DNA of 64,000 bases, taken from positions 878-64,877 of the forward strand of contig NZ_NNRM01000045.1 of assembly GCF_002252525.1 (NCBI RefSeq). Direction: 5' to 3'. A program made the position numbers and the translations under genes. Every line of letters begins with the position of its first letter. Position 1 is the first letter of the stretch. The stretch is from Brucella pseudogrignonensis (lineage in GTDB: Bacteria > Pseudomonadota > Alphaproteobacteria > Rhizobiales > Rhizobiaceae). This document shows, in pieces, positions 15,023 through 49,091 of this stretch. The notes beneath the pieces are model-generated. The model saw nothing but the letters and a program-made list of their open reading frames with translations. It did no database searches and was not told the DNA's origin.

Positions 15023-15035
15023 ACCGCTCAGATCA

Positions 15036-15715: not shown

Positions 15716-15911
15716 CCTCTTGTAATGCAAATACCTACTCGTGCTTCATACCATGAGTACGCCGGCTCCTGGTCATCTCGATGGAGACTGGATTTTCCGG
15801 ATCGTTTTGCAAGCGGATCACCAGAACAATCGCCTCATTGAGTAATCGTTTAATGACGACGTCGATTTCATAGGGGCTAAATCTAATGGGTTTATTCGAT
15901 CAGTTGGAAAT

Positions 15912-16532: not shown

Positions 16533-16601
16533 GAAACTAAGATTCTCCTTCGGAGGTTTATGTCGCACGTATGATCACAAAGGCAAAGTAGGGATGCGTC
16601 A

Positions 16602-16639
16602 AATTATGCACTTGCATAGCAATTATGCATCTGTATAGT
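16602..16639 (+). promoter_or_regulatory. Tandem TetR-type operators over a sigma-70-like promoter
   Basis: Two 19-bp tandem units (16602-16620 and 16621-16639) match at 15 of 19 positions. The first holds the perfect dyad TATGCA-CT-TGCATA, the second TATGCA-TC-TGTATA with one mismatch. The same stretch contains TTGCAT (16612-16617) and TATAGT (16634-16639) 16 bases apart, which look like -35 and -10 elements for the plus-strand importer operon, with a leader of about 200 bases. Binding here would block the promoter and probably also the divergent tetR promoter. The pattern is seen; the regulator match is inferred from position. Confidence 0.65.
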
Positions 16640-16838
16640 TTTCATTATAAAACGACTGCCTAGGGAAAATTCCAACAAGGCAGCGGGGGAAATGCAGTCA
16701 AGGTGAGGAGCACTTTCGAAAGCTGAACCGTTCACCACAACTCACGTATTAATCCGTGAGCTGATGGCAAAATGCGTCCGCTTAATCGTCATGCGGATGT
16801 TTAGACGTCTCGGATCATGCTTTTGAAATTGAAAATTA

Positions 16839-17612: not shown

Positions 17613-17620
17613 AGAACAAG

Positions 17621-17640
17621 CCGCAACACCAAGATTGCGG
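17621..17640 (+). other. Hairpin between ATPase and SBP genes
   Basis: CCGCAA and TTGCGG form a 6-bp stem with an 8-base loop, 30 bases upstream of the SBP start. No T run follows. Such hairpins often stabilise or set off the highly expressed SBP part of the message. Confidence 0.4.
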
Positions 17641-17670
17641 ACACTATGGAACAACAAAACGGAGGAAATC

Positions 17671-18453
17671 ATGAAGGCAATAATCAAGGCGTGTGCGGTA
17701 GCATTCTTAGCCGCGACGGCACTGGCACCCGCCGCACAAGCACAGACGATGAAGGTTGCATTTGGCGCAGAGCCTTATCCACCAATGTATTATCCGGACG
17801 CATCGGGCAAATGGCAAGGCTTTGAAATCGAACTCGCCGATGTCGTTTGTGAAGCAGCAGGGTTGAAATGCGAAACCGTGCCGATTGCATGGGATGGTAT
17901 TATTCCGGCTCTGACCAGCGGCAAGGTCGATATGATCATGGGTTCCATGTCAATCACCGACGAACGCAAGAAGCGCGTCGATTTCTCCGACAAATATTAC
18001 AAGATCCCGCCAATGATCATCACAGCCAAAGATGCGAAGTTCGACATCACGCCGGAAGGCATGGCGGACAAAGCGATCGGCGTTCAGGTTTCCACGACCC
18101 ATCAGGCCTATGTCGATAAGTATTTTGTGCCAAAGGGCGCAACGCTGAAAGAATATCAGACGCAAGACGAAGCCAATAACGACCTCGCAGCCGGACGTCT
18201 CGATGCGGTCATGGCCGACAGCAGCGCGCTAAGCGACTTCCTCAATACAGATGTCGGCAAATCCTGCTGCGAAAGCAAAGGCACACCGGCTGACGACGTA
18301 GGCATTCTCGGTCAGGGCGTTGGGGTTGCCGTCCGCAAGGGCGAAGACGATCTGCGCGAAAAGCTCAATGTCGCGATCAAGACCATTCGTGAAAACGGTG
18401 AATATGATCGCGTGGCGAAGAAGTATTTCACCTTCGACGTTTTTGGCCAGTAA
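17671..18453 (+). CDS. Polar amino acid-type solute-binding protein
   Basis: A 260-residue family 3 SBP. The signal peptide is residues 1-25 (ending AAQAQ). The mature N-terminus MKVAFGAEPYPPMYY and the stretches GFEIELADVVC and VDMIMGSMSITDERKKRVDFS are classic for the HisJ/ArgT/OccT group. The start at 17671 has GGAGGAAATC upstream. It contains the paired cysteines CC at about residue 201 (KSCCESKG), which may form a disulfide with another cysteine. It delivers its ligand to the following two permeases. The ligand is unknown; the TMADH-like enzyme downstream suggests an N-methylated amine or amino acid. Confidence 0.88.
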   Translation: MKAIIKACAVAFLAATALAPAAQAQTMKVAFGAEPYPPMYYPDASGKWQGFEIELADVVCEAAGLKCETVPIAWDGIIPALTSGKVDMIMGSMSITDERKKRVDFSDKYYKIPPMIITAKDAKFDITPEGMADKAIGVQVSTTHQAYVDKYFVPKGATLKEYQTQDEANNDLAAGRLDAVMADSSALSDFLNTDVGKSCCESKGTPADDVGILGQGVGVAVRKGEDDLREKLNVAIKTIRENGEYDRVAKKYFTFDVFGQ

Positions 18454-33024: not shown

Positions 33025-33996
33025 ATGCTTGGACGATTCATTCTCAACTATCCGGATACAGCGCGCAGGCTTGGTGGCCTTGTGCTGTTCGCAATCACAA
33101 TGGTGGCGCTCTATTCAATTGGCATTAGTGCACATTGGCTGGGTACAATAGTACCCCCGCTCGCAGAGTGGGTGAAGGAAAATCCCATTTTTGCGAGGGT
33201 TCTGTCGGCTTTTTCCATCTCTCTGATCCTGTTTCTGAACTGGAAACTGTTGAAGCGGCTATCGAGAAATCAGCAGGTTGTCGCGGTATGGACCGAACTC
33301 TTCGTCCTGCTGATGCTCTTCTTTTACTCGTTTGATCTGTCGTTCTCGTTTATCGCACGTAAGATCGGTTTCCTGATCACACAGGGAACGGTAACGACAC
33401 TCTATATTTCCGCGATTTCCATCGTGATAGCGACCATCATTGCGCTTATCGGCGCGATAGCAAAGCTGTCGCAGAACGGTGTCATTTACGGTCTTTCGAC
33501 GTTCTATACGTCGCTCTTTCGCGGTCTGCCGCTCCTGATGCAGATTTATATTATTTATCTTGGCTTGCCACAGATTGGTTACGTGATCGGTGCGATCCCT
33601 GCGGGCATCCTTGCGCTATCGCTCTGCTATGGCGCCTATATGACTGAAATTTTCCGTGCAGGTATTGAAAGCATTCCGCGCGGACAGAAGGAAGGTGCCA
33701 CGGCACTTGGTCTCGGCTCGGCACAGACGATGTGGCTTGTCATTCTGCCGCAAGCCATGCGGATCATCATTCCACCAACAGGCAACCAGTTCATTGCGAT
33801 GTTGAAGGACTCTTCGCTTGTTTCGGTGATCGGTGTTTGGGAGCTGATGTATGTTGCAAGAACTCAAGGCCAGACCGAGTTCAGACACATCGAAATGCTG
33901 ATCACCGCTTCCATGATTTACTGGATGCTCTCCATCTCGTTCGAGTTTATTCAGTCCCGCATTGAGCGCTATTACGCCCGATATAATAAGCGATAA
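33025..33996 (+). CDS. Amino acid ABC transporter, permease
   Basis: A 323-residue permease with two extra N-terminal membrane segments (about residues 15-40 and 58-80) before the five-segment HisM-type core. The EAA loop is AGIESIPRGQKEGATALGLG, followed by ILPQAMRIIIPPTGNQF. The ATG at 33025 has GAAGGAG upstream. Only one permease gene is present in this operon, so it probably works as a homodimer. Confidence 0.88.
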   Translation: MLGRFILNYPDTARRLGGLVLFAITMVALYSIGISAHWLGTIVPPLAEWVKENPIFARVLSAFSISLILFLNWKLLKRLSRNQQVVAVWTELFVLLMLFFYSFDLSFSFIARKIGFLITQGTVTTLYISAISIVIATIIALIGAIAKLSQNGVIYGLSTFYTSLFRGLPLLMQIYIIYLGLPQIGYVIGAIPAGILALSLCYGAYMTEIFRAGIESIPRGQKEGATALGLGSAQTMWLVILPQAMRIIIPPTGNQFIAMLKDSSLVSVIGVWELMYVARTQGQTEFRHIEMLITASMIYWMLSISFEFIQSRIERYYARYNKR

Positions 33997-34078
33997 GTCG
34001 TGGCCAAACGTCGATGCGCCTTCTTTAAGGCGTGTCGTATGTCTCGCTCCGTCGAACCATTTTCTATTGGAAAGCCCT

Positions 34079-37173: not shown

Positions 37174-38148
37174 CTACGAAATATTTTTCAGTGCTTCTGC
37201 TGCGTCACCATCGATTATAAGCCCATTGACGATGCCACTTTTAAGCAGCGCTTTAGCTGCCACTGCCTTTTCTTGACCAGCAATGAGTAGGACGACTTGA
37301 ATTTTCTGCAGTTCTGAAAAGCCGAGGGCAATCGTACGTCGATTCATTTCGTGGTCAATTTGATGCCCGTCCTCATCGAAGAAGATGCCGTTTGTATCAC
37401 CAATTGCGCCTGCAGCTCGAAGGCTTTCGAGTTCTGCTTTGCTCAACATGTTTTGGCGACGCAGCAGTGAATCCTCGGTCAACTCGCCGGCGCTGATGAA
37501 GCATACCGAGGCCGTCCGGGCTATTTCCATGGCATGGGCAACAGAGCGCTGAGAAATCAATACTTTTCGGTCCTCAGCAGAATCGGCGATAAATGGTACG
37601 GGTAGAAAAAAGCCCTGGCCACCTGTGCGTCGTGCGAGCATATGCACAACTTCGAACGGGTTATAAGCAGAGTTTGCTGTCAAAGACCCCATAACTGAGA
37701 TGAAGCGCGCTTGTGGCGAACGCACACCCGCAAGTTGTAATGTCATCTGCTCGATAGTTCGACCCCAACCGGTTCCGATGGTCGCTTCCTGATTATCCGC
37801 GAGGAAGTCCTTTAGGTAAGTTGCTGCAGAAACGCCAACGGCACGAAAGGAAACCTGTTTGCGGATCTCGGATGCGGTGTCATCGTTTGCATCGAAGCCA
37901 AATGGCGGTGTCGAAATACAAAAATCGAGCTCATACCGCCGCATAAGTTCATTTTCCAAAGGCAATGTTCCTGCATTCTGATGGTCTATCGATATGCTGA
38001 CAAGGCCGCTTTCTCTGGCCTCTCCGAGGATTTTATTGACGCGCGCACGCGTTAATCCCAGTCTTAAAGCAGTCGCCTCCTGGTTGAATCCTCCAACGTA
38101 ATAGAGCCATGCCACGCGTACCATTAGGCTGTCTTCAGATTCACTCAT
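37174..38148 (-). CDS. SorC-family (sugar-binding) transcriptional regulator
   Basis: A 324-residue SorC/DeoR-type regulator. Its N-terminal helix-turn-helix (VRVAWLYYVGGFNQEATALRLGLTRARVNKIL, interrupted) covers residues 10-45, and the sugar-phosphate-binding domain follows from about residue 60 (ATIGTGWGRTIEQM is the typical phosphate-site loop). It resembles EryD and related polyol regulators. It is divergent from the 38.4-49.1 kb operon, and the 12-bp inverted repeat between them is its likely operator. The effector is probably a phosphorylated sugar made by the FGGY kinase of the operon. Confidence 0.85.
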   Translation of the reverse strand: MSESEDSLMVRVAWLYYVGGFNQEATALRLGLTRARVNKILGEARESGLVSISIDHQNAGTLPLENELMRRYELDFCISTPPFGFDANDDTASEIRKQVSFRAVGVSAATYLKDFLADNQEATIGTGWGRTIEQMTLQLAGVRSPQARFISVMGSLTANSAYNPFEVVHMLARRTGGQGFFLPVPFIADSAEDRKVLISQRSVAHAMEIARTASVCFISAGELTEDSLLRRQNMLSKAELESLRAAGAIGDTNGIFFDEDGHQIDHEMNRRTIALGFSELQKIQVVLLIAGQEKAVAAKALLKSGIVNGLIIDGDAAEALKNIS

Positions 38149-38173
38149 TCGTCCCTCACTTCAATCACCGATC

Positions 38174-38210
38174 AAATTACAAATGTAATTCTATTTGACA
38201 TTTGTAATTT
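38174..38210. promoter_or_regulatory. SorC-type operator: 12-bp inverted repeat
   Basis: AAATTACAAATG (38174-38185) and CATTTGTAATTT (38199-38210) form a perfect 12-bp inverted repeat around a 13-base spacer. The left part also contains a second, tighter dyad AATTACA-AA-TGTAATT (38175-38190). It lies 26-62 bases upstream of the SorC start and overlaps the plus-strand -35 box. Nested symmetry fits a tetrameric regulator. Rest of the 316-base gap holds no gene. Confidence 0.7.
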
Positions 38211-38224
38211 GCCGACGCTTAATA
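38195..38224 (+). promoter_or_regulatory. Candidate promoter of the sugar/polyol operon
   Basis: TTGACA (38195-38200) and TTAATA (38219-38224) stand 18 bases apart. The first is a perfect -35 box and overlaps the right arm of the SorC inverted repeat, so regulator binding would control access. The leader to the SBP start is about 240 bases. Confidence 0.6.
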
Positions 38225-38464
38225 CCAAACATTCTGGCGGACAAGAGCGCGAAAGAGCGAACGGGTCAATTGGAATGCGGAGCTGAAGCATTAGCGGAAT
38301 GAAAACATCTTTCTCTGGAGGAGCAGGGACCGATGGCGCGTATCGCGGCAGTTCAGGAGGAGTAGCAGGTCAGTGCGGGGCACGGCTTTTATTCGTGCAT
38401 GAGGTCAAGTTCAACAATTTGAAGTTGCGCAGTGGATGCAACCACGCCGCTTCGGGGAGGAATG

Positions 38465-39418
38465 ATGGGATCAGGATTTATCAAGAAAACTGTTGCTGTT
38501 GCAGCCATGGCCGTGCTGATGGGCACCGCTAGCGCATCGGCGACGAATGTTGCCTGGGTGCATTCCAATGCTGCCGCGCAGTCTGAGCAACGCGCCAAGG
38601 CGGGTTTCGACGCCTGGCTGAAGGATACCAATAAAGATTGGAATATCAGTGTGCTGGATAGCGGTGGTTCAGGCGAGCGTACCGCTTCTAATATTCAGGA
38701 TGCAGCATCGCGCGGCGTTGATGCAATAATCGTGAGCATGTCCGACTTGCGTGCATCGCGTGCCGCTATCGATTCAGCTGTTGCCGCGAAAATTCCGGTC
38801 TTCGCGATCGACAGCGGACAGGTTGATGGCGTTCTCGTCGATGTCACCACCAATAATTGGGCAATGTCAGCGAGTGTATCGCCTTATCTGCTCAATGAAA
38901 TGGGTGGTAAGGGCAATCTCATCTTCTTGCGTATGGCAGAACATCACGGCACGCGTAAGCGTGGTGATATCATGGCTACGGTGTTGAAAGAGTATCCGGA
39001 AGTGAAGATCCTTGCGGAGCACAACATCGATTATACCGCTTTCTTTGAAGACACGACCAGTTCCATGCAGGACTATGCTTCGCGGTTTGGTGAAGAAATC
39101 AATGCGGTTTGGGCTCCATGGGATGAACCAGCGCAGGCGGCAATCAACTCTCTGAATGCGGCTGGTCTTAAGAATGTCAAAGTCATTGGTATCGATGGCC
39201 ATCCGCAAGCAATCGAGGAAGTCTGCAAGCCGGATAGCCTTATGATTGCAACGGTTTCCCAGCCTTTTGAAAAGATGGGCGCACAGACCGGTGAATGGAT
39301 AGAAAGCATCGTCGTGAAAAAGGAAGATGCGGCAACGGTTATTCCGTCCAAGACCGTCTATCTCGATGCTCCGCTTGTTACAAAGCAGAACTGCAAGGAC
39401 TTCCTCCCGAAGAAGTAG
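38465..39418 (+). CDS. Ribose-type sugar-binding protein
   Basis: A 317-residue periplasmic binding protein of the RbsB/XylF type. The signal peptide covers about residues 1-27 (ending ASASA). The mature part starts TNVAWVHSNAAAQSEQRAKA, with the DAASRGVDAIIVSMSD and VFAIDSGQVDG segments typical of this fold, and ends with a CKDFLPKK tail; two cysteines (CKPDS, NCKDF) may form a disulfide. GGGGAGG precedes two adjacent ATG codons; I use the second, at 38465. It is the first gene of the operon. A terminator-like hairpin follows it. Substrate unknown, probably a small polyol or deoxy-sugar. Confidence 0.85.
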   Translation: MGSGFIKKTVAVAAMAVLMGTASASATNVAWVHSNAAAQSEQRAKAGFDAWLKDTNKDWNISVLDSGGSGERTASNIQDAASRGVDAIIVSMSDLRASRAAIDSAVAAKIPVFAIDSGQVDGVLVDVTTNNWAMSASVSPYLLNEMGGKGNLIFLRMAEHHGTRKRGDIMATVLKEYPEVKILAEHNIDYTAFFEDTTSSMQDYASRFGEEINAVWAPWDEPAQAAINSLNAAGLKNVKVIGIDGHPQAIEEVCKPDSLMIATVSQPFEKMGAQTGEWIESIVVKKEDAATVIPSKTVYLDAPLVTKQNCKDFLPKK

Positions 39419-39437
39419 CTCCCCCAAGCCTGCAACT

Positions 39438-39475
39438 GGCCGGAACGAGACCGTTCTGCGTTCCGGCCTCTTTTA
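39438..39475 (+). terminator. Terminator/attenuator after the sugar SBP gene
   Basis: GGCCGGAACG (39438-39447) and CGTTCCGGCC (39459-39468) form a perfect 10-bp GC-rich stem with an 11-base loop, followed by TCTTTT. A competing small hairpin (GAACG-AGAC-CGTTC, 39443-39456) can form inside it. It lies between SBP and ATPase genes, where partial termination usually keeps SBP mRNA in excess. Confidence 0.75.
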
Positions 39476-39506
39476 ACTTGATACTTTAATTCGCGGGAGT
39501 TCTTCG

Positions 39507-41021
39507 ATGGCCGTGAGCCTTTCGCAGATCGTCATGTCCTATCCTGGAACGCTGGCACTAGATCAGGTCAGTGCGGAATTCCGGTTTGATGAGGTACATG
39601 GCCTGATCGGAGAAAATGGTGCGGGAAAGACAACTCTTGTCAGCATTCTCGGTGGTAGTAAAAGCCCGACCTCTGGTAACATTACGATTGATGGTACTGA
39701 GGTTAAGCTGGCAAGCGCAGGTGATGCGCTTCGCAAAGGTATTGCGCATGTTTCGCAAGAAGGTAGCCTCGTTCCCGGATTGACTGGTGCGCAGAACATT
39801 CTATTGGGCGACGAGCCGCGCATGGGACTTGGCGTTATCGATAAACGAAAGCTTATCGTGCGGGCTGATGAATTGCTCAGGCGCTGGTTTCCGCAGGTGT
39901 CGATCGATCTCGATCAGCAGGTCGATATGCTGCCGATGGCAGATCAGAAAATTATCGAAATTGTGCGGGCTCTTCGCGGCAATGTTCGCCTGCTTATTCT
40001 TGATGAACCCACGGCAACATTGCCCGCGCGTGAAAAAGAAAGCCTTTGGCAGATCATCAAGACCTTACCGCAGCAAGGCGTTGGCATTGTACTGATCAGC
40101 CATTTTCTCTCTGAGATCAAAGCGCTGAGTGACCGTATAACTGTTCTTCGTGATGGAAGGCATGTAGCAACACTAGAGGCGGAAAATTCAAGTGAAGCAC
40201 AACTTATAGACCTGATGCTTCAGCGTTCGGGCGGTAAGAGTGCTGCCGAGCAGGATGTCAGGCAAACACGCAACCTCGGCCCAGTGGTTATGGAAGTCAG
40301 CGACTGGCAGGCTGGTGGCGTGAGTGTCGATAATTTCGCCATCCGTTCCGGTGAGATTGTCGGGCTTATTGGCTTGACGGGGGCAGGGCATTTTGGCTTT
40401 GCGCGGTCGCTTTACACAGCAAGTGGGCAGACCGCCGGAACCTGTCGTTTTGATGGCACTTCCATCACCAGAGTTGATGCGAGAACCATGCAGAAGAAGG
40501 GCGTGGCGCTTGTGCCCGACCATCGCATGGAAAATGCACTGATTGGCGATTGGGATGTGCGCGAAAATCTTGCGATGGTCCACCCATCATACGCAACTTT
40601 GGGCGGCACGGGCGTATTGTCCATGCGCCGCGAGGCGAGCGAAGCGGACCGCACAATGCAGTTGATGAACGTCAAGGCACATTCACGAAGCCAGTTTGTG
40701 AAAGACCTGAGCGGTGGCAACAAACAAAAGGTTTCGATTGGCAAGCGGCTTTACGGCGCTGACGATCATTACCGGTTGATGATCTTCATCGAACCTACAG
40801 AGGGAGTGGATATCGGCGCCAAGCGCGAGATTCATGCGCAGATGCGCAGACTTGCCGAAAAAGGGATAGCCATTCTCGTAACCTCTTCCGACCTTCTGGA
40901 AATAGCCGACGTGGCAGACCGCGTCATCCCATTCGTGAATGGCAAGCCCGGTCCACAGATTGAGCGCAGCGCATTCTCAGAAGCGAAATTTATTGCCGCA
41001 ATGGCAGGAGTTACCCAATGA
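39507..41021 (+). CDS. Ribose-type ABC transporter, double ATP-binding subunit
   Basis: A 504-residue RbsA/XylG-type protein with two ATPase halves. First half: Walker A GENGAGKTTL, Walker B LLILDEPTATL, switch His in LISHFLSEI. Second half: degenerate Walker A GLTGAGHFGF (no Lys), signature LSGGNKQKVSIGKRL and IEPTEGVDIGAK, where the usual Walker B Asp before Glu is Ile. Loss of function in the second site is common in this family. ATG at 39507 with GGGAG upstream; it overlaps the next gene by 4 bases (ATGA). Confidence 0.88.
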   Translation: MAVSLSQIVMSYPGTLALDQVSAEFRFDEVHGLIGENGAGKTTLVSILGGSKSPTSGNITIDGTEVKLASAGDALRKGIAHVSQEGSLVPGLTGAQNILLGDEPRMGLGVIDKRKLIVRADELLRRWFPQVSIDLDQQVDMLPMADQKIIEIVRALRGNVRLLILDEPTATLPAREKESLWQIIKTLPQQGVGIVLISHFLSEIKALSDRITVLRDGRHVATLEAENSSEAQLIDLMLQRSGGKSAAEQDVRQTRNLGPVVMEVSDWQAGGVSVDNFAIRSGEIVGLIGLTGAGHFGFARSLYTASGQTAGTCRFDGTSITRVDARTMQKKGVALVPDHRMENALIGDWDVRENLAMVHPSYATLGGTGVLSMRREASEADRTMQLMNVKAHSRSQFVKDLSGGNKQKVSIGKRLYGADDHYRLMIFIEPTEGVDIGAKREIHAQMRRLAEKGIAILVTSSDLLEIADVADRVIPFVNGKPGPQIERSAFSEAKFIAAMAGVTQ

Positions 41022-42022
41022 ATGCCCGATCTTCAGCGGTCTCACCGCAATCATCCCGTCATGCCCAGAGCTTCGGTAAAAAGCTCAAAGGCGAGTGGCT
41101 GCTGAAATACAGTACGCTCTTTGTGCTTTTCCTATTGTTTGCGGGCTTTTCACTGACCGTTGACCGCTTCCTCACGGCAAACAATCTGCTCAATATTATC
41201 CAGCAGATTTCGATGCTTACCATCGTTGGTGCAGGCCTGACATTTGGCTTTGCAGCGCGAGAAATGGACCTTTCGGTCGGTTATATGGTTGGTATGGCAG
41301 GCATTCTGGTACCGCTGATGCTGGTTGCCGGATTTCCGTTGCCAGTTGCTTTGCTTGCTGGTCTTGGTGCCGGTCTGGTCGTCGGTTCGGTCAATGCCGC
41401 ACTGGTTACGCTGGTGGGGGTTCCGTCACTGATCGCCACGCTTGCGATTGGCTCTATTCTCTACGGTATCAATTTTCTGATGACGGGCGGACGAGCAATT
41501 TATGGCGGGCTTCCTGCAAGTTATCTCTGGCTTGGCCAGGGACAACTCTTTGGCATCCCGGTGCTTGCCTATGCCATGGTGATTGTTGTTTTCGTGGCCT
41601 GGTTCCTGATGGAGCGAACCGTTTTCGGTCGTTACATTTATGCGGTGGGCGGAAATCTTAAAGCAGCGGAGCTTTCTGGCGTGAATGGTCGCTTCTATCG
41701 CGCTGCCGCTCTTGTGGTCTGCTCAATTTTTGCAGCTGTTGCAGGTGCGCTTCTTGCAGCGCGCTTGGGGTCCGGTCAGCCCAATGCAGGCGAACGTTAT
41801 CTGCTTGATGGTCTTGCTACAGTATTTATTGGAATGACCATGTTCCGTCCGGGTACTGCAACAATTGCAGGGACCTTCTTCGGCGCGCTTTTCATCGGCG
41901 TCATCAATAACGGCCTTAACCTTATTGGCATGGACACATACATCCAGAGCATCGTGAAGGGCCTTATCATTCTCGTGGCGGTCGCAGTCGTTTCGCGAAC
42001 CACCAAACTGAAGCTCCTTTGA
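41018..42022 (+). CDS. Ribose-type ABC transporter, permease
   Basis: A 334-residue RbsC-type permease with about 8-10 membrane segments after a 30-residue cytoplasmic lead. FAAREMDLSVGYMVGMAGIL and RYLLDGLATVFIGMTMFRPG stretches are typical for this family. It overlaps the ATPase stop by 4 bases, so the two are translationally coupled. It completes the importer for the operon's substrate. Confidence 0.88.
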   Translation: MNARSSAVSPQSSRHAQSFGKKLKGEWLLKYSTLFVLFLLFAGFSLTVDRFLTANNLLNIIQQISMLTIVGAGLTFGFAAREMDLSVGYMVGMAGILVPLMLVAGFPLPVALLAGLGAGLVVGSVNAALVTLVGVPSLIATLAIGSILYGINFLMTGGRAIYGGLPASYLWLGQGQLFGIPVLAYAMVIVVFVAWFLMERTVFGRYIYAVGGNLKAAELSGVNGRFYRAAALVVCSIFAAVAGALLAARLGSGQPNAGERYLLDGLATVFIGMTMFRPGTATIAGTFFGALFIGVINNGLNLIGMDTYIQSIVKGLIILVAVAVVSRTTKLKLL

Positions 42023-42091
42023 GGAACTGCGTTAGGCATTGAACCAAACATCATGAAAAACTTGAAACAGACAAGTCTGTCGGAGGCGCGC

Positions 42092-43120
42092 GTGCAAAAT
42101 CCGAGTAACTCTAATCTTCTCGAACTATACCGGACGATGCGGCGTATCCGCACCTTTGAAGAACGCGTTGGTGAATTGTTCGTACGTGGCCAGACGGCGG
42201 GTTCGATGCTTCACCTTTCCATTGGTGAAGAGGCAGCCGCTGCCGGTGTATGTGCTGCTATGCAGCCGCAGGACACTTTCACAACCCATCATCGCGGCCA
42301 TGGTATTTTTCTTGCGCGCGGTGCTGATCCCAAACAAATGATGGCGGAAATCGGCGGCAAGGAAACCGGTTACTGCCATGGTAAGGGTGGTTCCATGCAT
42401 ATTGCCGACATGGCGCTTGGACATCTTGGCGCCAATGCCATTGTTGGTGGTGGTATTCCATCCGTTGTTGGCGCAGGCCTTTCCAGCAAGTACCTCAAGA
42501 AAAACTCTGTCTCTATCGCCTTTTTTGGCGATGGTGCGATGCAGCAGGGCATTCTCTATGAGAGCATGAATATGGCAGCGCTTTGGGGCCTGCCGGTCGT
42601 GTTTGTTTGCATCAACAATCAATATGGCATGGGCACGCGTGTTGATCAGGCGACAGCCAATACAGCGTTTGACCAGCGCGCGCATGCATTCGGTCTTAAC
42701 GGTGCAGTCGTGGATGGTATTGATGTTGAAGAAGTAAAAAGCGTTGCGCAGGGACTGATTGATGATGCTCGCCTTGGCAAGCCAGGTTTCCTGTCAGTGA
42801 CCTGCTACCGTTTCTTTGGTCATGCGCGCATGGACAAGAGTCCATATCGCGCGGAAGCGGAAGAGACAGAAGGTCGGAAAAAAGATCCGGTAAAGTTCAC
42901 ACGGGATAGGCTGATTTCGGAAGGTTTGGCACCAGAAACTGACCTCGACGCGATGGATAGTGGCATCACGGCCGAAATGGATGCGACTATTGATTTTACC
43001 GTGGAATCCAAAGCGCCTCCACTCACTTCCATGTTCAGAGATGTCTATGCGGTTGGCGAACCAGAGCCGGAACCCGTCCGCACTCGTATTGATCGCGTAC
43101 TTTCCAGGGATGAAGCATAA
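42092..43120 (+). CDS. Thiamine-dependent dehydrogenase E1 alpha (acetoin dehydrogenase-like)
   Basis: A 342-residue E1-alpha subunit of the acetoin/pyruvate dehydrogenase type. HHRGHGIFLARGAD, GKGGSMHIAD and the thiamine-diphosphate motif GDGAMQQG...NNQYGMGTR are clear. I place the start at GTG 42092, which has a perfect GGAGG 5 bases upstream; an ATG 13 codons earlier (42053) has no ribosome site. Its TPP carbanion would attack a keto group of the substrate; acetoin-type enzymes cleave acyloins, while pyruvate-type enzymes decarboxylate 2-oxoacids. The E2 type argues for the acetoin side. It overlaps E1 beta by 1 base. Confidence 0.85.
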   Translation: MQNPSNSNLLELYRTMRRIRTFEERVGELFVRGQTAGSMLHLSIGEEAAAAGVCAAMQPQDTFTTHHRGHGIFLARGADPKQMMAEIGGKETGYCHGKGGSMHIADMALGHLGANAIVGGGIPSVVGAGLSSKYLKKNSVSIAFFGDGAMQQGILYESMNMAALWGLPVVFVCINNQYGMGTRVDQATANTAFDQRAHAFGLNGAVVDGIDVEEVKSVAQGLIDDARLGKPGFLSVTCYRFFGHARMDKSPYRAEAEETEGRKKDPVKFTRDRLISEGLAPETDLDAMDSGITAEMDATIDFTVESKAPPLTSMFRDVYAVGEPEPEPVRTRIDRVLSRDEA

Positions 43121-44094
43121 TGGTTGCCATGACTTACCGCGATGCGCTGCGTAAGGCGCTGGATGATGCCATGGCTGAAGACAACACCATTGTTGTGATC
43201 GGTGAAGAAGTGGGCCGTTATGGTGGTGCCTACGGCGTTACAAAAGACTTGATCGGTAAATATGGAGCGGACCGGCTTATCGACACACCGATTTCCGAGC
43301 CAGCAATTATTGGTGCAGCCGTGGGTGCAGCAATGACCGGGCTGCGTCCTGTTGCTGAACTGATGTATATCGATTTCCTTGGCATGACGATGGATCAGCT
43401 TGCCAATCAGGCTGCCAAAATCCGCTATATGTTTGGCGGACAGATTGGCGTGCCGATGGTTCTTCGCACGCAAGGTGGCACCGGTCGTTCGGCAGGCGCG
43501 CAGCATTCACAAAGTCTGGAAGCATGGATCATGCATACGCCGGGCCTTCGGCTTGCGATGCCTGCGACTGTACAGGATGCCTATCATCTGCTGCGCCAGA
43601 GCCTCACGAAACCTGATCCGGTGGTCTTCATTGAGCACAAAGCGCTGTATACTCGCAAGGAAGAGGTCGACCTTGATGCAGAGCCGCTGGAATGGGGCAA
43701 GGCAGCAGTACGGCGTACAGGTAAGGATCTCGTTATCGTCACTTATTCGCGCCAACTGCACTACGCGATGGATGCGGCTGAAAAACTTGCTTCCAAGGGT
43801 ATTGAAGCGACGGTTATAGATCTTCGTACGCTCAACCCGCTCGATTTTGACACGGTGCGCGAACACGTTGAGCGTGTCGGCAAGGCCATGGTTGTATCCG
43901 AAGGCGTGATGACGGCGGGTGTAGCAGCAGAGCTTTCGGCACGCATTACGGAAGAGTGCTTCGATTATCTCGAACAGCCTGTCGTGCGGGTGGCGGGTGA
44001 AGACATTCCAATTTCAGTCTCGCAGGATCTGGAAGCCGGAAGTGTGCCGACAGCAGACCTGATCCGTTCGGTCGCAGAGAGAATGCTGTCATGA
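43120..44094 (+). CDS. Thiamine-dependent dehydrogenase E1 beta (acetoin dehydrogenase-like)
   Basis: A 324-residue transketolase-like E1-beta subunit. VVIGEEVGRYGGAYGVTKDL, DTPISEPAIIGAAVGAAMTG and GGTGRSAGAQHSQSLEAW are family hallmarks. It pairs with E1 alpha as a 2+2 heterotetramer. ATG 43120 overlaps the preceding stop codon (TAATG); a second ATG three codons in is possible. It overlaps the lipoyl gene by 4 bases (ATGA), so the whole complex is translationally coupled. Confidence 0.88.
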   Translation: MVAMTYRDALRKALDDAMAEDNTIVVIGEEVGRYGGAYGVTKDLIGKYGADRLIDTPISEPAIIGAAVGAAMTGLRPVAELMYIDFLGMTMDQLANQAAKIRYMFGGQIGVPMVLRTQGGTGRSAGAQHSQSLEAWIMHTPGLRLAMPATVQDAYHLLRQSLTKPDPVVFIEHKALYTRKEEVDLDAEPLEWGKAAVRRTGKDLVIVTYSRQLHYAMDAAEKLASKGIEATVIDLRTLNPLDFDTVREHVERVGKAMVVSEGVMTAGVAAELSARITEECFDYLEQPVVRVAGEDIPISVSQDLEAGSVPTADLIRSVAERMLS

Positions 44095-44654
44095 CAGAAC
44101 GTATTCTCAAAATGCCACGTCTGGGTGAAACGATGGAAGAAGGCAAGATTGTCGGCTTTCTCGTGAATCCCGGCGATAGTTTCAAACGTGGCGATTCAAT
44201 CATCGAGATCGAAACAGACAAAACCGTTGCAGAGTTTCCAGCTCTTGGGGACGGTACACTGCATGAGTGGATCGGATCTGTTGGAGATCATGTGGTGGTT
44301 GGTGCGCCGCTGGCGCGTATCGACATAGGCGTTGGTCCCGACTGGACGGATGAGGGCGGTGAAAGCACACCTGTTTCGGAAGAGTCCACTGACGATTTTG
44401 TTGTAACTGAGCTGGATATGCCCCGCCTCGGGGAAACGATGGAAGAGGGGCGCATTGTCCGTTGGCTAAAGGCTGCAGGCGATAGCTTCGAGCGTGGCGA
44501 AGCCGTTCTCGAAATTGAAACAGACAAGACGGTCGCAGAATTTCCTGCGCTGGTCGGCGGTAAGATCGTCGAAATCCTGCGTCAGAAAGGCGACATGGTA
44601 ACGGTTGGCGGCGCTATAGCTCGCATCGAGGTTGCCGGATGCCCCCGCCGTTGA
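44091..44654 (+). CDS. Double lipoyl-domain protein, N-terminal part of a split E2
   Basis: A 187-residue protein of two lipoyl domains in tandem (about residues 2-80 and 108-184), each with PRLGETMEEGxIV and the lipoylated Lys in IETDKTVAEFPA (about residues 44 and 151). The linker is acidic. It ends CPRR and stop immediately after the second domain. The next frame continues with an E3-binding domain and an alpha/beta hydrolase, so the two parts look like one E2 split by a single extra base in a five-C run at 44642-44646: removing one C gives a continuous frame. It carries the acyl group from E1 to CoA. Confidence 0.85.
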   Translation: MTERILKMPRLGETMEEGKIVGFLVNPGDSFKRGDSIIEIETDKTVAEFPALGDGTLHEWIGSVGDHVVVGAPLARIDIGVGPDWTDEGGESTPVSEESTDDFVVTELDMPRLGETMEEGRIVRWLKAAGDSFERGEAVLEIETDKTVAEFPALVGGKIVEILRQKGDMVTVGGAIARIEVAGCPRR

Positions 44655-45651
44655 AACAGTTGCAGCATCAGCTGTGCCAATAGTGTCTAGCGCAGCTGTT
44701 GCAAGACAAGCGGGAAGGGATAAGCGTGTTCGTGCGACACCCCTTGCACGCCGGATAGCGCGTGACAAAGGCATCGATATCCAACTTCTATCCGGTACTG
44801 GTCGCAGGGGGCGTATTGAAAAAGAGGACGTACTCGCTGCCTCCGGTAATACTCTGCCAAAAGGTGATATACAGTTTGTCGAACTTGGACGTGGGCGCGT
44901 TGCCTATAGCGACCAGGGTTCAAAGGATGCGCCGACCTTCCTGCTTCTGCATGGATTTTCTGGAGATCGCACCACATGGAGTGGTATCGCTTCAGGTTTG
45001 CGCCGGGCAAATTTCCGCGTTATTGCGCCCGATCTTCCCGCGCATGGTCTGACAACGATTGAAGCGGGGCATATCGATCAACTAAGCGATTTTCTCTCGG
45101 AGTTTCTCGACGCATTGTCCGTTAAGAACGTTCATGTAGTCGCTCACTCCCTAGGCGCTCTTGCAGCAACGGAGTTTGCACAGACCCATGCTCAGCGTGT
45201 TTCGGGGCTAACGCTTATTGCGCCAGCTGGTCTTGGTTCCGAAATCGATGCAAGTTTCATTTCCGGCATGGCGAATGCCACGACAGCTGGTGAGGTGACG
45301 CATCTGCTCAGGCGCGTTGCGGCCAAACCTGTTGAGCTTTCGCCCGAACTTGCGGCCGACTTTGCGCGCACAATGAGCAAAGGCCGTCTCAAGGCACTTG
45401 CGGAAACCATTATCGGATCATCAGGGCAACGTATCGATATTATCACATCACTGGATAAGCTTTTGCGTTCAATGTCCGTGAGAGTTCTTGTTGGTCTTCA
45501 AGACCGCATTATCCCGTGGCAGCAGGTGACATCGTTGCCACCTTCAGCGAGTGTCCATTTCTTCGCTCAATCCGGCCATATGCCGCAATGGGATCAAACG
45601 AAAGATGTGCTGGATCTCATCTTGAGCTCTACAGGAGAGGCCGATGACTGA
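44632..45651 (+). CDS. E3-binding domain plus alpha/beta hydrolase, C-terminal part of a split E2
   Basis: A 339-residue protein. About residues 33-72 form a peripheral-subunit-binding domain (VRATPLARRIARDKGIDIQL then GTGRRGRIEKEDV). From about residue 80 it is an alpha/beta hydrolase with oxyanion segment LLLHGFSGDRTTW, nucleophile in AHSLGA (Ser), GLQDRIIP (Asp) and QSGHMP (His). Acetoin-dehydrogenase E2 (AcoC) has this same unusual hydrolase-type catalytic domain. The only in-frame start near the front is TTG 44632, inside the lipoyl gene, with poor ribosome site; frameshift repair with the upstream gene is a better explanation. Confidence 0.8.
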   Translation: MPDAPAVETVAASAVPIVSSAAVARQAGRDKRVRATPLARRIARDKGIDIQLLSGTGRRGRIEKEDVLAASGNTLPKGDIQFVELGRGRVAYSDQGSKDAPTFLLLHGFSGDRTTWSGIASGLRRANFRVIAPDLPAHGLTTIEAGHIDQLSDFLSEFLDALSVKNVHVVAHSLGALAATEFAQTHAQRVSGLTLIAPAGLGSEIDASFISGMANATTAGEVTHLLRRVAAKPVELSPELAADFARTMSKGRLKALAETIIGSSGQRIDIITSLDKLLRSMSVRVLVGLQDRIIPWQQVTSLPPSASVHFFAQSGHMPQWDQTKDVLDLILSSTGEADD

Positions 45652-45979
45652 TGTAAAAGCAAAACTCAAAGAAGCTCAATCACGGCTTGGTGCTTTTGCC
45701 AAGGCAACGCCCGAGCTCATGTCAGGCTTTGCCAAGGTCAGCAAGACAGCAACTGCTGCGGGTCGTTTCTCCTCCGCTCAACGTGAGTTGATTGCGGTGA
45801 GCATTGCTGTCGCCAAAGGGTGCGAGGACTGCATTCTATATCATGTCGATGCCGCTATCCGCCATGGTGCAGCAGAAGTGGAACTGCTCGAAGCATTGGA
45901 AGTAGCTGTCGAAATGGGAGGCGGTCCAGCAGTTATGTATGCGGGCAAAGCACTCGAGGCATTTCGCAATTTGAGTTGA
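45644..45979 (+). CDS. AhpD/carboxymuconolactone decarboxylase-like protein with CxxC
   Basis: A 111-residue helical AhpD-like protein. The redox motif KGCEDCILYHVDAAIRHGA (CxxC with the following His) sits at about residues 60-78, as in AhpD-type alkylhydroperoxidases. It overlaps the E2 gene by 8 bases. AhpD of mycobacteria is reduced by the lipoyl E2 and lipoamide dehydrogenase. There is no lipoamide dehydrogenase (E3) gene here, so this protein could draw electrons from, or protect, the lipoyl arms. That role is inference. Confidence 0.8.
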   Translation: MTDVKAKLKEAQSRLGAFAKATPELMSGFAKVSKTATAAGRFSSAQRELIAVSIAVAKGCEDCILYHVDAAIRHGAAEVELLEALEVAVEMGGGPAVMYAGKALEAFRNLS

Positions 45980-46035
45980 GTTTAGGGCAAAGCAAAGGTT
46001 GGAGGCGCTTTTGCATTTGCTTCGGGAGGAATTGA

Positions 46036-47529
46036 ATGGCTTATTTTCTCACCGCCGACGGAGGCACGGAAAGTATCCGCGCGCGGGTTTACGATTTGTC
46101 GGGCGTATGCCTTGCCAGTGCTGCAGTTCCATATGAAACCAAGTTTTCCAGCGGTGCACGAGCTGAACAAAATCCAGAAGATTGGTGGAGCTCCTTCGTT
46201 CAGGCCGCACGCAAAGCGATATCAGAATCCGCAATTGATCCGGCTGCGATCGAAGCGATAACGCTTGCCACAACAAGCTGCACGGTTGTTGCGCTCGACG
46301 CTGACGGAAAGCCTCTGCGTCCATCGATTATCTGGATGGATGTTCGCGCTAGCTCAGAAGCGGAAGCTGTATTGGCGACGGGCGATCAGGCGCTCAAAGC
46401 CAATGGCGGTGGCCAAGGGCCTGTCTCGGCGGAATGGATGATCCCCAAGGCACTCTGGATTGCACGCAATGAGCCGGAGATTTTCGCGAAGGCCGAAACG
46501 ATCTGCGAGTATCAGGATTTTATGACTTTGCGCCTGACTGGCGAAAAAGCAGCAAGTCTCAACAACGCGTCGCTGCGCTGGCATTATTCGACTGATCGTG
46601 GCGGGTTCCCCACGACGATGCTGCAAAAACTGGGGCTTGAAACCTTATTGCATAAATGGCCATCGCGCGTGGTCGCGCCGGGCGAGGTAGTCGGTACGCT
46701 TTGTACGTCCGCCGCCTCCGAACTTGGTCTCAGCCAGACGGTGAAACTGGTTCAGGGTGGGGCTGATGCACTGATTGGCATGATCGGCCTTGGTGTTGCC
46801 AAACCCGGTCAACTTGCTCTGATAACCGGGTCGTCGCATCTGCAGTTTGGTGTTTCGGACAAACCACTCCATGCCCCCGGCATTTGGGGGAGTTACCCGG
46901 ATATGCTCTATCCGGGGCGCTACGTGATTGAAGGTGGCCAAACATCAACCGGTTCGATTATCGCATGGCTGGGCCGCATGATGAACGGTACAATGGATAT
47001 GGAAGCATTGAACCGTAAGGCTGCGGCTCTTGAGCCGGGGGCGGACGGACTTCTGGTGCAAGACCATTTTCAGGGCAATCGCACGCCTTATACTGATGCC
47101 CTGTCGCGTGGGGCAATTGTCGGTCTGACACTTGCACATGAGCCGCATCATATTTTCCGGGCAATCATGGAAGGCATCAGTTTTGGTACTCGCGCAATTC
47201 TCGATGCCATGGGAGATGCTGGTTATCGCGGACAGGAAATCACCGTTGGCGGCGGAGCAAGTGCCTCTCCGCTCTGGTTGCAGATACATGCTGATACGGC
47301 TGGCTTGCCTGTTTGTGTGCCGCAGTCACGCGATGCGCCATCGGTGGGAGCTGCGGTTTTGGCGGCCCATGGTGCGGGATATTTCGCCACTATCGATGAC
47401 GGAATCGCCGCGATGGTGAAGCCCGGAACGCGTATAGAACCGCGTCCGCGCGAAGCAGCGATCTATAACGAGATTTACCAGCAGTATCGCGCTTTGTACC
47501 CGGCGCTGAAATCTGTTCACGCGGCCTGA
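46036..47529 (+). CDS. FGGY-family carbohydrate kinase
   Basis: A 497-residue kinase of the xylulokinase/ribulokinase/glycerol kinase superfamily. Domain I starts LTADGGTESIRARVYDLSG, and IIWMDVRASSEAEAVL carries the conserved MDxRA. Domain II has ITGSSHLQFGV and EGGQTSTGSII, and the ATP-site motif is VGGGASASPLWLQIHADTAG. A GGGAGG site precedes the ATG at 46036. XylB can phosphorylate 1-deoxy-D-xylulose, so a deoxy-pentulose is chemically possible as a substrate. Its product is probably the signal for the SorC regulator. Confidence 0.85.
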   Translation: MAYFLTADGGTESIRARVYDLSGVCLASAAVPYETKFSSGARAEQNPEDWWSSFVQAARKAISESAIDPAAIEAITLATTSCTVVALDADGKPLRPSIIWMDVRASSEAEAVLATGDQALKANGGGQGPVSAEWMIPKALWIARNEPEIFAKAETICEYQDFMTLRLTGEKAASLNNASLRWHYSTDRGGFPTTMLQKLGLETLLHKWPSRVVAPGEVVGTLCTSAASELGLSQTVKLVQGGADALIGMIGLGVAKPGQLALITGSSHLQFGVSDKPLHAPGIWGSYPDMLYPGRYVIEGGQTSTGSIIAWLGRMMNGTMDMEALNRKAAALEPGADGLLVQDHFQGNRTPYTDALSRGAIVGLTLAHEPHHIFRAIMEGISFGTRAILDAMGDAGYRGQEITVGGGASASPLWLQIHADTAGLPVCVPQSRDAPSVGAAVLAAHGAGYFATIDDGIAAMVKPGTRIEPRPREAAIYNEIYQQYRALYPALKSVHAA

Positions 47530-47549
47530 AATCAATTGGGGAGAGACCA

Positions 47550-48320
47550 TTGCTCAGGGATTTCGAACTTACAGATAAGCTTGCAGTCATTACCGGTGGA
47601 GCCAAAGGCATAGGCCGCGCTATTGCGCAGTTGTTCGTTGAAGCGGGAGCAACTGTTATCATAACCGATCGTGATGAAGCGGCAGGTAAGGCGGCTGTTG
47701 CAGAGCTCAACACGTTAAGAGCTGCCTCGGCTAGTCTTTATATCCTTGATGTAACGGACAAGGATGCAGTCGAACGCACTGCAGAAGCTATTTCCCGCCA
47801 AAATGGTTGTCCGCATATATTGGTGAATAATGCGGGCATCGTCAAAAATGCCCCGGTCGCCGAAACTGCGGAAGCTGACTGGCGAGCCGTAATCGATGTC
47901 AATTTAAATGGCGTATTCTTCTGTGCGCAGGCGTTCGGAAAGCGTATGGCTGCAGCCGGCCGTGGTGCGATCGTCAATATTTCATCCATGTGCGGTGAGA
48001 TCGTTGTCTATCCGCAGCCGCAGGTCGCGTATAATGCTGCTAAGGCAGGTGTTAATCTCATCACCAAATCGCTTGCAGTCGAATGGGCAAAGCATGGCGT
48101 GCGCGCAAACGCGGTCGCGCCCGGCTATACGGCGACTGAGCTCACTCTTGCAGGTTGCAGCAACGAAGAGTGGTTTTCGAAATGGCTTGCCATGACACCC
48201 CAGGGACGGCTCGGCGAACCGCGTGAAATCGCAAATGCTGTTCTGTTTCTCGCATCCGATGCGGCGAGCTTCGTAACCGGCACGGTGTTGACCGTTGATG
48301 GCGGCTATACTGCCCTTTAA
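47550..48320 (+). CDS. Short-chain dehydrogenase/reductase 1
   Basis: A 256-residue SDR. Cofactor motif GGAKGIGRAIAQ at about residues 16-27, NNAG at about 91, catalytic Ser in NISSM and YNAAK (Tyr-xxx-Lys) at about 160, and the C-terminal GTVLTVDGGYTAL. The start is TTG at 47550 with GGGGAGAG upstream. It probably oxidises the imported polyol, or reduces an intermediate, with NAD(P). It lies 20 bases after the kinase. Confidence 0.88.
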   Translation: MLRDFELTDKLAVITGGAKGIGRAIAQLFVEAGATVIITDRDEAAGKAAVAELNTLRAASASLYILDVTDKDAVERTAEAISRQNGCPHILVNNAGIVKNAPVAETAEADWRAVIDVNLNGVFFCAQAFGKRMAAAGRGAIVNISSMCGEIVVYPQPQVAYNAAKAGVNLITKSLAVEWAKHGVRANAVAPGYTATELTLAGCSNEEWFSKWLAMTPQGRLGEPREIANAVLFLASDAASFVTGTVLTVDGGYTAL

Positions 48321-48335
48321 TTTCTGGAGGATGAA

Positions 48336-49091
48336 ATGACCGAACAGGCAAAAATAGCACTGGTTACAGGTGCCAGTCGTGGAATTGGACGTGCGATCGC
48401 TGTTGGTATGGCCAAACGCGGTTTTGATATAGCCATCAACGATATTGAACGTCAGAAAGATGCAATGCAGGACGTTGCAAAAGAAATAGAAGCGAGTGGT
48501 CGCCGCGTCTTAACTGTCTATGCCGATGTTAGTAATAAAACCGACGTTGAAACCATGGTTCAGAAGACGGTTGAAAAGTTTGGCCGCATCGATGCTGTCG
48601 TGAACAATGCAGGTATCCTGATTGCAAGCGACGTCGAACATCTTAAAGAAGAACATTGGGACAGCGTTCTTGATGTGAATGCCAAGGGCACATTTCTGGT
48701 TGTTCAGGCCGTGTTACCATTTATGAAGAAACAGAATTACGGTCGTATCGTGAATATCGCATCGATTGGCGGCAAGCATGGCGCGCCGGAACAAGCACAT
48801 TATTCTGCCTCAAAGGCTGCTGTTATGGGTTTCACGCGCGTATTGGCGCAAGAGGTTGGAACGTTCGGTATCACTGCAAATTGCATTTGCCCCGGCATAA
48901 TACTCACCGATATGGGCCGCGTTAATCTAGACGATATTGCGGTGCGCGAGACATGGCAGGAAAAAACAGCCATGCGACGGATCGGTGATCCTGAAGATGT
49001 AGTAGGGCCGGTTGCATTTCTCGCTTCGGATGATGCAGCTTTTGTTACCGGGCAAAGCCTGAATGTCGATGGCGGTATCGTGCTGAGCTAG
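48336..49091 (+). CDS. Short-chain dehydrogenase/reductase 2
   Basis: A 251-residue SDR. TGASRGIGRAIAVGMAK cofactor motif near the N-terminus, NNAGILIASDVEHL at about residue 89, NIASIGGKHGA and YSASKAA (Tyr-xxx-Lys) at about 155-160, and SLNVDGGIVLS at the end. ATG at 48336 with GGAGG upstream. It is the last gene of the operon, 15 bases after SDR 1. The two SDRs are only moderately alike, so they may act on different hydroxyl groups or directions. Confidence 0.88.
   Translation: MTEQAKIALVTGASRGIGRAIAVGMAKRGFDIAINDIERQKDAMQDVAKEIEASGRRVLTVYADVSNKTDVETMVQKTVEKFGRIDAVVNNAGILIASDVEHLKEEHWDSVLDVNAKGTFLVVQAVLPFMKKQNYGRIVNIASIGGKHGAPEQAHYSASKAAVMGFTRVLAQEVGTFGITANCICPGIILTDMGRVNLDDIAVRETWQEKTAMRRIGDPEDVVGPVAFLASDDAAFVTGQSLNVDGGIVLS

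Follow-up and report, generated by a model that had tools for sequence, protein, structure and literature searches.

A conserved sugar kinase and E1/E2 gene set in Brucella pseudogrignonensis with a possible role in 1-deoxyketose breakdown

Gene content of the locus

A gene cluster of Brucella pseudogrignonensis that joins a sugar importer and a sugar kinase to the E1 and E2 components of a thiamine- and lipoyl-dependent complex was analysed within a stretch of 64,000 nucleotides of contig NZ_NNRM01000045.1 (the window), which belongs to a 5.5-Mb draft genome of 53 contigs. Genes were identified from a list of open reading frames (ORFs) and by Pfam and NCBIfam model scans, all of which bore out the gene set of the original prediction, an earlier reading of the bare sequence: a SorC regulator, an importer, E1 alpha and beta, E2 domains, an AhpD-like protein, an FGGY kinase, and two short-chain dehydrogenases (SDRs) (Table 1). 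The genes 3' of the divergent regulator plausibly form one transcription unit, judging from the sequence. The junctions had been described as mostly 4-base overlaps, which was too strong: just two of the ten are of that kind, three are overlaps of 1, 8, and 23 bases (the last inside E2), and five are gaps of 15 to 88 bases.

The regulator scored 166.6 bits with the NCBIfam DeoR model (cut-off, 420) and 105.9 bits with the LsrR model (cut-off, 486), both far below the required values. For the binding protein, the longest ORF opens at a GTG at 38432, with an ATG at 38465, and its best solved relatives by sequence were 3l49 and 4wt7. SDR 1 is probably NAD dependent, given the Asp after beta2 and the YxxxK motif, and SDR 2 is probably so as well; the best solved relatives of SDR 2 are of the FabG type, and it matched butanediol dehydrogenase and acetoin reductase models among others, most of them under their cut-offs.

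Table 1. Features of the operon in the window and of a second E1/E2 operon in the same genome
Feature	Position	Strand	Evidence or content
SorC/DeoR-type regulator with Sugar-bind domain, divergent	37174..38148	-	Pfam PF04198, 1.6e-50
Periplasmic sugar-binding protein	38465..39418	+	Peripla_BP_4, 4.7e-31
Two-domain ATP-binding cassette (ABC) ATPase	39507..41021	+	ABC_tran, two stretches
ABC permease, single	41018..42022	+	BPD_transp_2, 2.2e-37
Thiamine-dependent E1 alpha	42053..43120	+	E1_dh, 3.7e-69; loop GHARMDKSPYR with Arg259 and Lys262
E1 beta	43120..44094	+	Transket_pyr and Transketolase_C; Arg123 six residues before His129
E2, N-terminal piece with two lipoyl domains	44091..44654	+	Biotin_lipoyl, two; ETDK lysine motifs at residues 41 and 143
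E2, C-terminal piece, other frame	44632..45651	+	E3_binding, 3.6e-15; Abhydrolase_1, 8e-25
AhpD-like protein with CxxC	45644..45979	+	CMD, 2.3e-18
FGGY sugar kinase	46036..47529	+	FGGY_N and FGGY_C domains
SDR 1	47550..48320	+	NCBIfam SDR/FabG models; Asp after beta2; YxxxK
SDR 2	48336..49091	+	NCBIfam SDR models; YxxxK
Second operon	L158 (G000:C48:196000-215900), 4511-17839		DRL_cat, E1 alpha, E1 beta, E2

Conservation of the kinase and the E1/E2 genes

Relatives of the locus were collected by the kinase (best 80 of 580 confirmed), and near kin weigh heavily in all locus counts given here. Gene presence was scored by identity thresholds, and contigs that end early lower the counts for SorC, importer, AhpD, and SDR genes. 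Both E1 alpha and E1 beta were present in 58 of the 80 kinase loci, with E1 beta at most 3.3 kb and E1 alpha at most 4.3 kb from the kinase start (in L027 and L047, E1 alpha is cut by the contig end), and at these thresholds no locus among the 80 had one E1 subunit alone. The E1-bearing loci span four phyla, and the kinase-linked E1 clade extends to Verrucomicrobiota, Deinococcota, and Myxococcota, chiefly through metagenome assemblies. Relative to E1, the kinase is downstream in 49 loci and upstream in the other 9. Of the 58 loci, 57 gave a match to the hydrolase part of E2 and 55 to its lipoyl part; the E2 of the Deinococcota locus L080 resembles another type.

The remaining genes varied, with SorC scored in 48 of the 58 loci, the importer in 30, AhpD in 30, SDR2 in 29, and SDR1 in 26. 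All 30 importer-bearing loci had SorC, and 26, 26, and 23 of them had AhpD, SDR2, and SDR1, respectively; the other 28 loci had a diverged form of the importer (L017, L056, and L058), a different importer, or a contig that ended early. Because the E1/E2 genes are kept while the importer and other genes vary, the kinase and E1/E2 are regarded as the core and the entry genes as the variable part. The presence of both E1 subunits in 58 of the 80 loci is more than chance; a comparison of gene order in related genomes was among the checks suggested earlier. In the Verrucomicrobiota locus L074, the kinase and the E1 alpha, E1 beta, and E2 genes were recognised together with a CUT1-type importer and two regulators, one of the SorC and one of the LacI type, and queries for SDRs, the epimerase, and dihydroxyacetone kinase drew no match. 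L076 resembles L074 in ORF order and size, as far as the ORFs alone tell.

Among the 22 loci scored without E1, six were shorter than 14 kb (L042, L053, L061, L066, L083, and L087), and L042, L051, and L053 still hold a piece of E2. In L013 (8470-13000), the regulator, part of the binding protein, the kinase, and both SDRs are kept, and the rest of the importer and E1/E2 gave no match, which looks like an internal deletion.

By kinase, the named near relatives were Falsochrobactrum, Brucella tritici, and Ochrobactrum (91-92%). Of 23 genomes of the same genus, 13 held the kinase at at least 90% identity and one (G006) held broken pieces; in the remaining nine, some of them incomplete, the best match among those listed was at most 37% identical. 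Given this patchy presence, the kinase is an accessory trait of the genus.

Placement of E1 outside the acetoin dehydrogenase clade

In a quick tree of concatenated E1 alpha and beta sequences (82 rows, after 96 E1 pairs were reduced by 15 near-copies or repeats and one pyruvate dehydrogenase [PDH] row was added), 51 kinase-linked rows formed one side of a branch with 100% SH-aLRT support. Of the 21 rows whose loci had been retrieved by the acetoin E2 model, 20 formed a separate clade, also at 100%. A careful tree of 38 rows, including the canonical acetoin locus L168 (sigma-54 regulator, NAD-kinase-like gene, E1 alpha, E1 beta, and E2, in that order), recovered the kinase-linked and acetoin clades at 100/100 each. 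These separate clades place the E1 outside the acetoin dehydrogenase clade despite the label of its E2; the earlier description of the complex as acetoin-dehydrogenase-like therefore stands for the type of E2 and fails for E1. With family models, E1 alpha scored 327.9 bits against the PDH model TIGR03182 and did not pass its cut-off of 393.85, although PDH models were still its best scorers, and E1 beta passed the broad subfamily model NF006667 (PRK09212) with 354.7 bits (cut-off, 321).

The operon shares with AcoABC systems the E1 alpha/beta pair and a lipoyl E2 with E3-binding and alpha/beta-hydrolase domains, and the acyloin cleavage to acetyl coenzyme A (acetyl-CoA) proposed below would be a further likeness. 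It differs in the separate E1 clade, in basic residues of an E1 loop, in having a sugar kinase as the usual neighbour, and in its SorC regulator, in contrast to the sigma-54 regulator and NAD-kinase-like AcoX of L168. No AcoR or AcoX gene was seen among the proteins of 37174-49091 by ORFs, Pfam, or NCBIfam.

The genome also holds a further E1 at L159 (G000:C48:18000-37900), in which the alpha and beta parts apparently form one long frame, with an acetoin-type E2 on the opposite strand.

A second E1/E2 operon with a DXR-II-type gene

Within the genome, the paralogue most similar to the E1 alpha of the operon (44%) is preceded by a DRL_cat gene and followed by the genes for E1 beta and an E2 of the acetoin type (L002/L158; Table 1). 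Beside this second operon are a SorC gene, a gene for an EI-HPr protein, glucitol-type phosphotransferase system (PTS) genes, and a galactitol-type EIIC gene, and a role in methylerythritol catabolism is possible. The DXR-like family has been divided into DXR-II, which turns 1-deoxyxylulose 5-phosphate (DXP) into methylerythritol phosphate and of which eleven members were verified as making that product, and DLO1/DLO2, of which four members failed the test; positions 121, 229, 250, and 320 are among the telling ones for DXR-II (according to the available part of PMC3847144). At these positions, counted by hand on an alignment to 3upl, the L158 protein keeps Gly121, Thr229, His250, and Arg320, as do all nine family members aligned. 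In total, the genome holds two DRL_cat genes, 75% alike by tblastn, and gave no match to DXR-I in a search that matched 9 of 14 control genomes. Of these two genes, one may act in isoprenoid synthesis and the other together with the E1/E2 set.

Similar arrangements were found elsewhere. Forty plasmid rows with a DRL gene were listed out of 111 matching records, and of the 20 of them that were inspected, 17 had E1 beta within 3 kb (16 by coordinates and one by annotation). A DXR-II-type gene lies directly before E1 alpha, E1 beta, and E2 in Agrobacterium, Nitratireductor, Aminobacter, Pseudoroseomonas, and Sinorhizobium chiapasense (L100-L103 and L169), and E3 follows E2 in L100 and L169; the S. 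chiapasense record, which lies outside the 40 listed rows, carries an aldolase gene as well as E3. On a Priestia plasmid, 13 kb hold DRL_cat, E1, E2, E3, and an FGGY kinase that shares 41% identity with that of the window, with E1 beta about 7 kb from the DRL gene; SorC is present as well. On plasmids of Listeria innocua (L104) and Ligilactobacillus (L105), the DXR-II-type gene occurs with a glucitol-type PTS, in Ligilactobacillus also with transketolase and fructose-6-phosphate aldolase, and E1/E2 genes are absent within 8 kb of the DRL gene by annotation.

The two operon types are alike in placing E1 alpha, E1 beta, and E2 beside a sugar-phosphate enzyme, often with SorC, and in the basic E1 loop. 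They are unlike in the mode of entry, which in the DXR-II-linked operons is through a reductoisomerase family and a PTS, PfkB, or ABC route and in the operon of the window through an FGGY ketose kinase (Priestia has both). Their E1 clades also differ: a single origin of kinase-linked and DXR-II-linked E1s was tested and weakly rejected (p-AU 0.024). No account of the DXR-II-linked E1/E2 operons was found in a search of openly licensed PubMed Central papers or in the available part of PMC3847144.

Active-site loop of E1

The loop of E1 alpha in which human PDH has phosphorylation sites reads GH[A/G]R[M/K]DKSPYR in the kinase-linked family. All 62 rows, which comprise 61 different sequences and include many near kin, have Arg259 and Lys262. 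The DXR-II-linked E1s have GHSKSDRNRYR or a near variant; all seven rows carry Lys or Arg at the first place, including L169, which is basic at both places, and six are basic at the second (Arg in five of the six rows other than L169), the exception being Priestia, with a Lys one place on. In contrast, none of 23 acetoin-type E1s (22 rows plus L168) was basic at either place, and 19 of the 22 had Glu at the first. The loop counts exclude L164, an acetoin-type row outside the acetoin clade, together with L002, L004-L006, and L159, a copy of L004, from the same genome. Neither of two PDH E1s (human and own genome) was basic, both having Met and Pro at the two places, and L004, L005, L006, and L164 had no basic first-place residue where the loop was readable, L004 not being alignable by its motif. 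Among six other E1s fetched, L171 from Clostridioides had Lys at the first place, and L174 and L175, which are acyl-CoA linked, had Lys at the second. L171 (5001-10921) is from a plasmid on which SorC stands beside E1/E2/E3, near a major facilitator superfamily transporter and glycosidases, and its E1 groups with that of Priestia.

The basic residues in both sugar-linked E1 types suggest a contact with phosphate. As the union of the two types is weakly rejected, the likeness of their loops is parallel or ancestral. In E1 beta, Arg123 was present in 62 of 62 kinase-linked rows. Its place lies near that of AceE L633R, a change that gives DXP activity; little weight is given to this nearness because DXR-II-linked E1s have Thr there.

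Two alternatives in which the complex acts on a conventional substrate bear on these results. In one, E1/E2 would act on acetoin and the SDRs on butanediol, with the kinase serving another sugar. The type of E2 and the butanediol dehydrogenase and acetoin reductase matches of SDR2, below cut-offs, agree with this; the E1, however, falls outside the acetoin clade and has Arg where most acetoin-type rows have Glu, the AcoX/AcoR pair of canonical L168 is lacking, and the kinase adjoins E1 in 58 of 80 loci over four phyla, so that we consider this alternative quite unlikely. In the other, the complex would oxidise a 2-oxo acid formed from a sugar by steps outside the operon and fed by the kinase product. 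Although the E1 beta match to NF006667 and the ranking of PDH models for E1 alpha would suit such a substrate, E1 alpha stays under the PDH cut-off, its loop is unlike that of PDH, and no dehydratase or aldolase was found among the operon proteins with Pfam and NCBIfam; this alternative also appears improbable.

The E2 gene and its broken frame

The E2 domains of the original prediction, with lipoyl and hydrolase parts, were confirmed as two lipoyl, an E3-binding, and an alpha/beta-hydrolase domain, but not as a single intact gene: two overlapping ORFs in different frames encode them (44091-44654 and 44632-45651), with the break between the lipoyl and E3-binding domains. E2 is in one frame in both nearest relatives (L162, 527 amino acids; L161, 538 amino acids), whose kinases are 98% identical to that of the window, and also in L009, L010, and L012. 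The gene in the window strain is either broken or mis-assembled. Against the acetoin-type model NF011457, for which the cut-off of 307 bits is set for the whole protein, the two pieces scored 160.9 and 266.7 bits.

Kinase and entry genes

Among the 12 models listed for the kinase, the best was XylB (TIGR01312), with 296.1 of the 380.25 bits needed to pass; it reached 282.1 of 428 bits with the ribulokinase model and 175.5 of 528 with LsrK, and it matched the solved autoinducer-2 (AI-2) kinase 5ya0 at 1.2e-32. In a quick kinase tree of 84 rows (five near-copies dropped; rows shorter than 440 amino acids or with a stop left out), a clade of 61 with 100% support contained 53 E1-linked, 4 unlinked, and 4 undecided members. 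Most E1-linked kinases thus belong to one clade, and the link is not strict. Xylulokinase-type FGGY operons for polyols and pentuloses likewise have an importer, an SDR, and an FGGY kinase and end at a pentulose phosphate, unlike the present operon, in which an E1/E2 complex follows.

A ketose-3-epimerase-type gene (40% or more identity to a single TIM-barrel protein) was found in 9 of the 58 E1-bearing loci: directly before E1 alpha in five (L032, L038, L041, L057, and L063), behind the regulator in L064, and further off in three. None of the nine had SDR1 or SDR2 at the thresholds used. With solved D-tagatose 3-epimerases, the L041 protein scored 473 bits; with the D-psicose 3-epimerase model, it reached 156 of 300 bits and the L084 protein 121. 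Ketose 3-epimerases act on free ketoses. The occurrence of SDRs in one operon type and of a 3-epimerase in another would point to a free ketose as the substrate of the kinase. Near the kinase, ketose-3-epimerase-type or dihydroxyacetone-kinase-type genes were also observed in L041, L064, and L067, with E1/E2, and in L073, without.

Breakdown of AI-2 was the first candidate function drawn from the SorC, FGGY, and ribose-type importer set, which recalls the Lsr system; that system yields acetyl-CoA among its products. Here, AI-2 (4,5-dihydroxy-2,3-pentanedione, DPD) would be imported and phosphorylated by an LsrK-like kinase, and the complex, replacing LsrF and LsrG, would split the hydrated diketone phosphate into acetyl-CoA and 3-phosphoglycerate, a cleavage that seems chemically sound. 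The LsrK and LsrR matches and the match to 5ya0 would fit, but the former two are weak, falling short of their cut-offs and of the scores with XylB and DeoR, respectively; no LsrB, LsrF, or LsrG model was among the matches listed for ten operon proteins (best 25 for three), and the SDRs and the ketose 3-epimerase would have no role. The candidate was rejected, and we give it little chance of being right.

The CxxC motif of AhpD was kept in 32 of 32 tblastn matches (L009-L088). A mycobacterial AhpD draws electrons from lipoyl groups, and one may speculate, by analogy, that the AhpD of the operon does so too.

Elsewhere in the window, a long ORF at 33962-37009 appears by eye to be a fusion of phosphotransferase-like and class III aminotransferase parts. 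In the wider analysis, clusters of long antisense ORFs (10, 11, 13, and 18) were set aside as chance frames, the two members scanned, from clusters 10 and 18, having no Pfam match.

Proposed pathway and precedent

We put at about even the chance that the operon serves to break down a sugar alcohol or ketose ending in a methyl ketone, which would be split into acetyl-CoA and an aldose phosphate. The importer would bring in the sugar alcohol or ketose, and the SDRs would oxidise the polyol to a 1-deoxy-2-ketose, a step replaced elsewhere by 3-epimerisation or by nothing. The FGGY kinase would then phosphorylate the far end of the ketose, the dedicated E1 alpha/beta would cleave its C2-C3 bond by thiamine-dependent acyloin cleavage, and the lipoyl E2 would pass the acetyl group to CoA, giving acetyl-CoA, NADH, and the aldose phosphate, with the lipoyl groups reoxidised by the general E3 of the cell. 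A C5 ketose of D configuration, for example 1-deoxy-D-xylulose, would yield acetyl-CoA and glyceraldehyde 3-phosphate. What the sequences show directly is the gene set and its conservation, the separate E1 family, the basic loop residues, and the linkage of the kinase to E1/E2; each of the reactions is inferred, as are a deoxy substrate, reliance on the general E3, and the role of AhpD.

Published work offers a precedent for the kinase step and for the thiamine chemistry in the forming direction. According to the available part of PMC3424233, the aceE changes Q408R, L633R, E636Q, and E636G rescue the loss of DXS, and strains with mutant aceE hold about 20-fold more DXP; the same text cites reports of the formation of 1-deoxyxylulose from pyruvate and glyceraldehyde by purified PDH and of the phosphorylation of 1-deoxyxylulose by XylB, and its reference list includes a 1986 title on 1-deoxyketose formation by PDH and acetoin dehydrogenase. 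No publication on the catabolic direction, or with any account of this operon, was found among openly licensed PubMed Central papers. The salvage of 5-deoxyribose (the dihydroxyacetone phosphate [DHAP] shunt), as described in the available part of PMC6079011, is alike in being a kinase-first breakdown of a deoxy pentose and unlike in ending with aldol cleavage to DHAP and acetaldehyde; neither its isomerase nor its aldolase was found among the operon proteins with Pfam and NCBIfam.

A deoxy sugar is favoured because an ordinary ketose phosphate needs no such complex and acetoin needs no kinase; this is the main argument and not a proof. If the substrate were instead an ordinary ketose, the complex would cleave a pentulose or hexulose phosphate into glycolyl-CoA and an aldose phosphate, as a lipoamide-linked counterpart of phosphoketolase. 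The kinase and epimerase families do act on ordinary ketoses, and any ketose phosphate would be compatible with the basic E1 loop; nevertheless, xylulose or ribulose phosphate is generally metabolised with no need of such a complex, no recognised glycolyl-CoA enzyme was found in the gene set by Pfam and NCBIfam, and the printed precedent in the available part of PMC3424233 is for 1-deoxyketoses. An ordinary ketose thus seems an unlikely substrate.

The chemistry of the original prediction (polyol to methyl ketose, kinase, and acyloin cleavage) fits better than the alternatives weighed and gained support from the DXR-II-linked E1/E2 set, the basic E1 loop, the epimerase-type genes, and the reduced set of L074; the deoxy substrate, its chain length and stereochemistry, and a DXP intermediate are at most suggested by these observations.

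Several observations weigh against a 1-deoxyketose module. The scheme does not account for dihydroxyacetone-kinase-type genes (6 of 58 loci) or AhpD (30 of 58), and the best-matching models for the kinase, SDRs, and epimerase are of ordinary-sugar or FabG-type enzymes. Linkage to E1 requires nine changes over the kinase tree, so the kinase also lives without E1, and the E2 frame of the window itself is broken. With regard to the loop, two acyl-CoA-linked E1s (L174 and L175) also carry Lys at the second place, and, being parallel or ancestral given the weak rejection of a joint clade, the basic loop could serve another purpose. In addition, Arg123 of E1 beta is not common to the DXR-II-linked E1s, and the Priestia DRL protein had no match in the 80 kinase loci by tblastn at an E value of 1e-5.

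A wider reading, which we regard as possible yet doubtful, is that bacteria have two thiamine/lipoyl complexes of separate evolutionary origin for the breakdown of 1-deoxyketose phosphates, one fed by the ketose kinase, with entry by SDRs or a 3-epimerase, and the other by DXR-II run backwards from imported, phosphorylated 2-C-methylerythritol, with the window genome carrying both. 2-C-Methylerythritol is a plant and atmospheric compound. In the second complex, it would be converted after import and phosphorylation to DXP and then to acetyl-CoA and glyceraldehyde 3-phosphate, so that the early part of isoprenoid synthesis would be run in reverse for food.

If the 1-deoxyketose module is real, a complex of the pyruvate dehydrogenase type would release acetyl-CoA straight from a sugar phosphate, a breakdown reaction that we know of in no textbook route. 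Furthermore, a function would be assigned to an E1 family that is labelled pyruvate or acetoin dehydrogenase in public records and that occurs in alphaproteobacteria and three other phyla. Together with the neighbouring DXR-II operon, it would explain the DXR-II-type gene beside E1/E2 on many rhizobial plasmids and would provide a candidate route for the microbial breakdown of methylerythritol.

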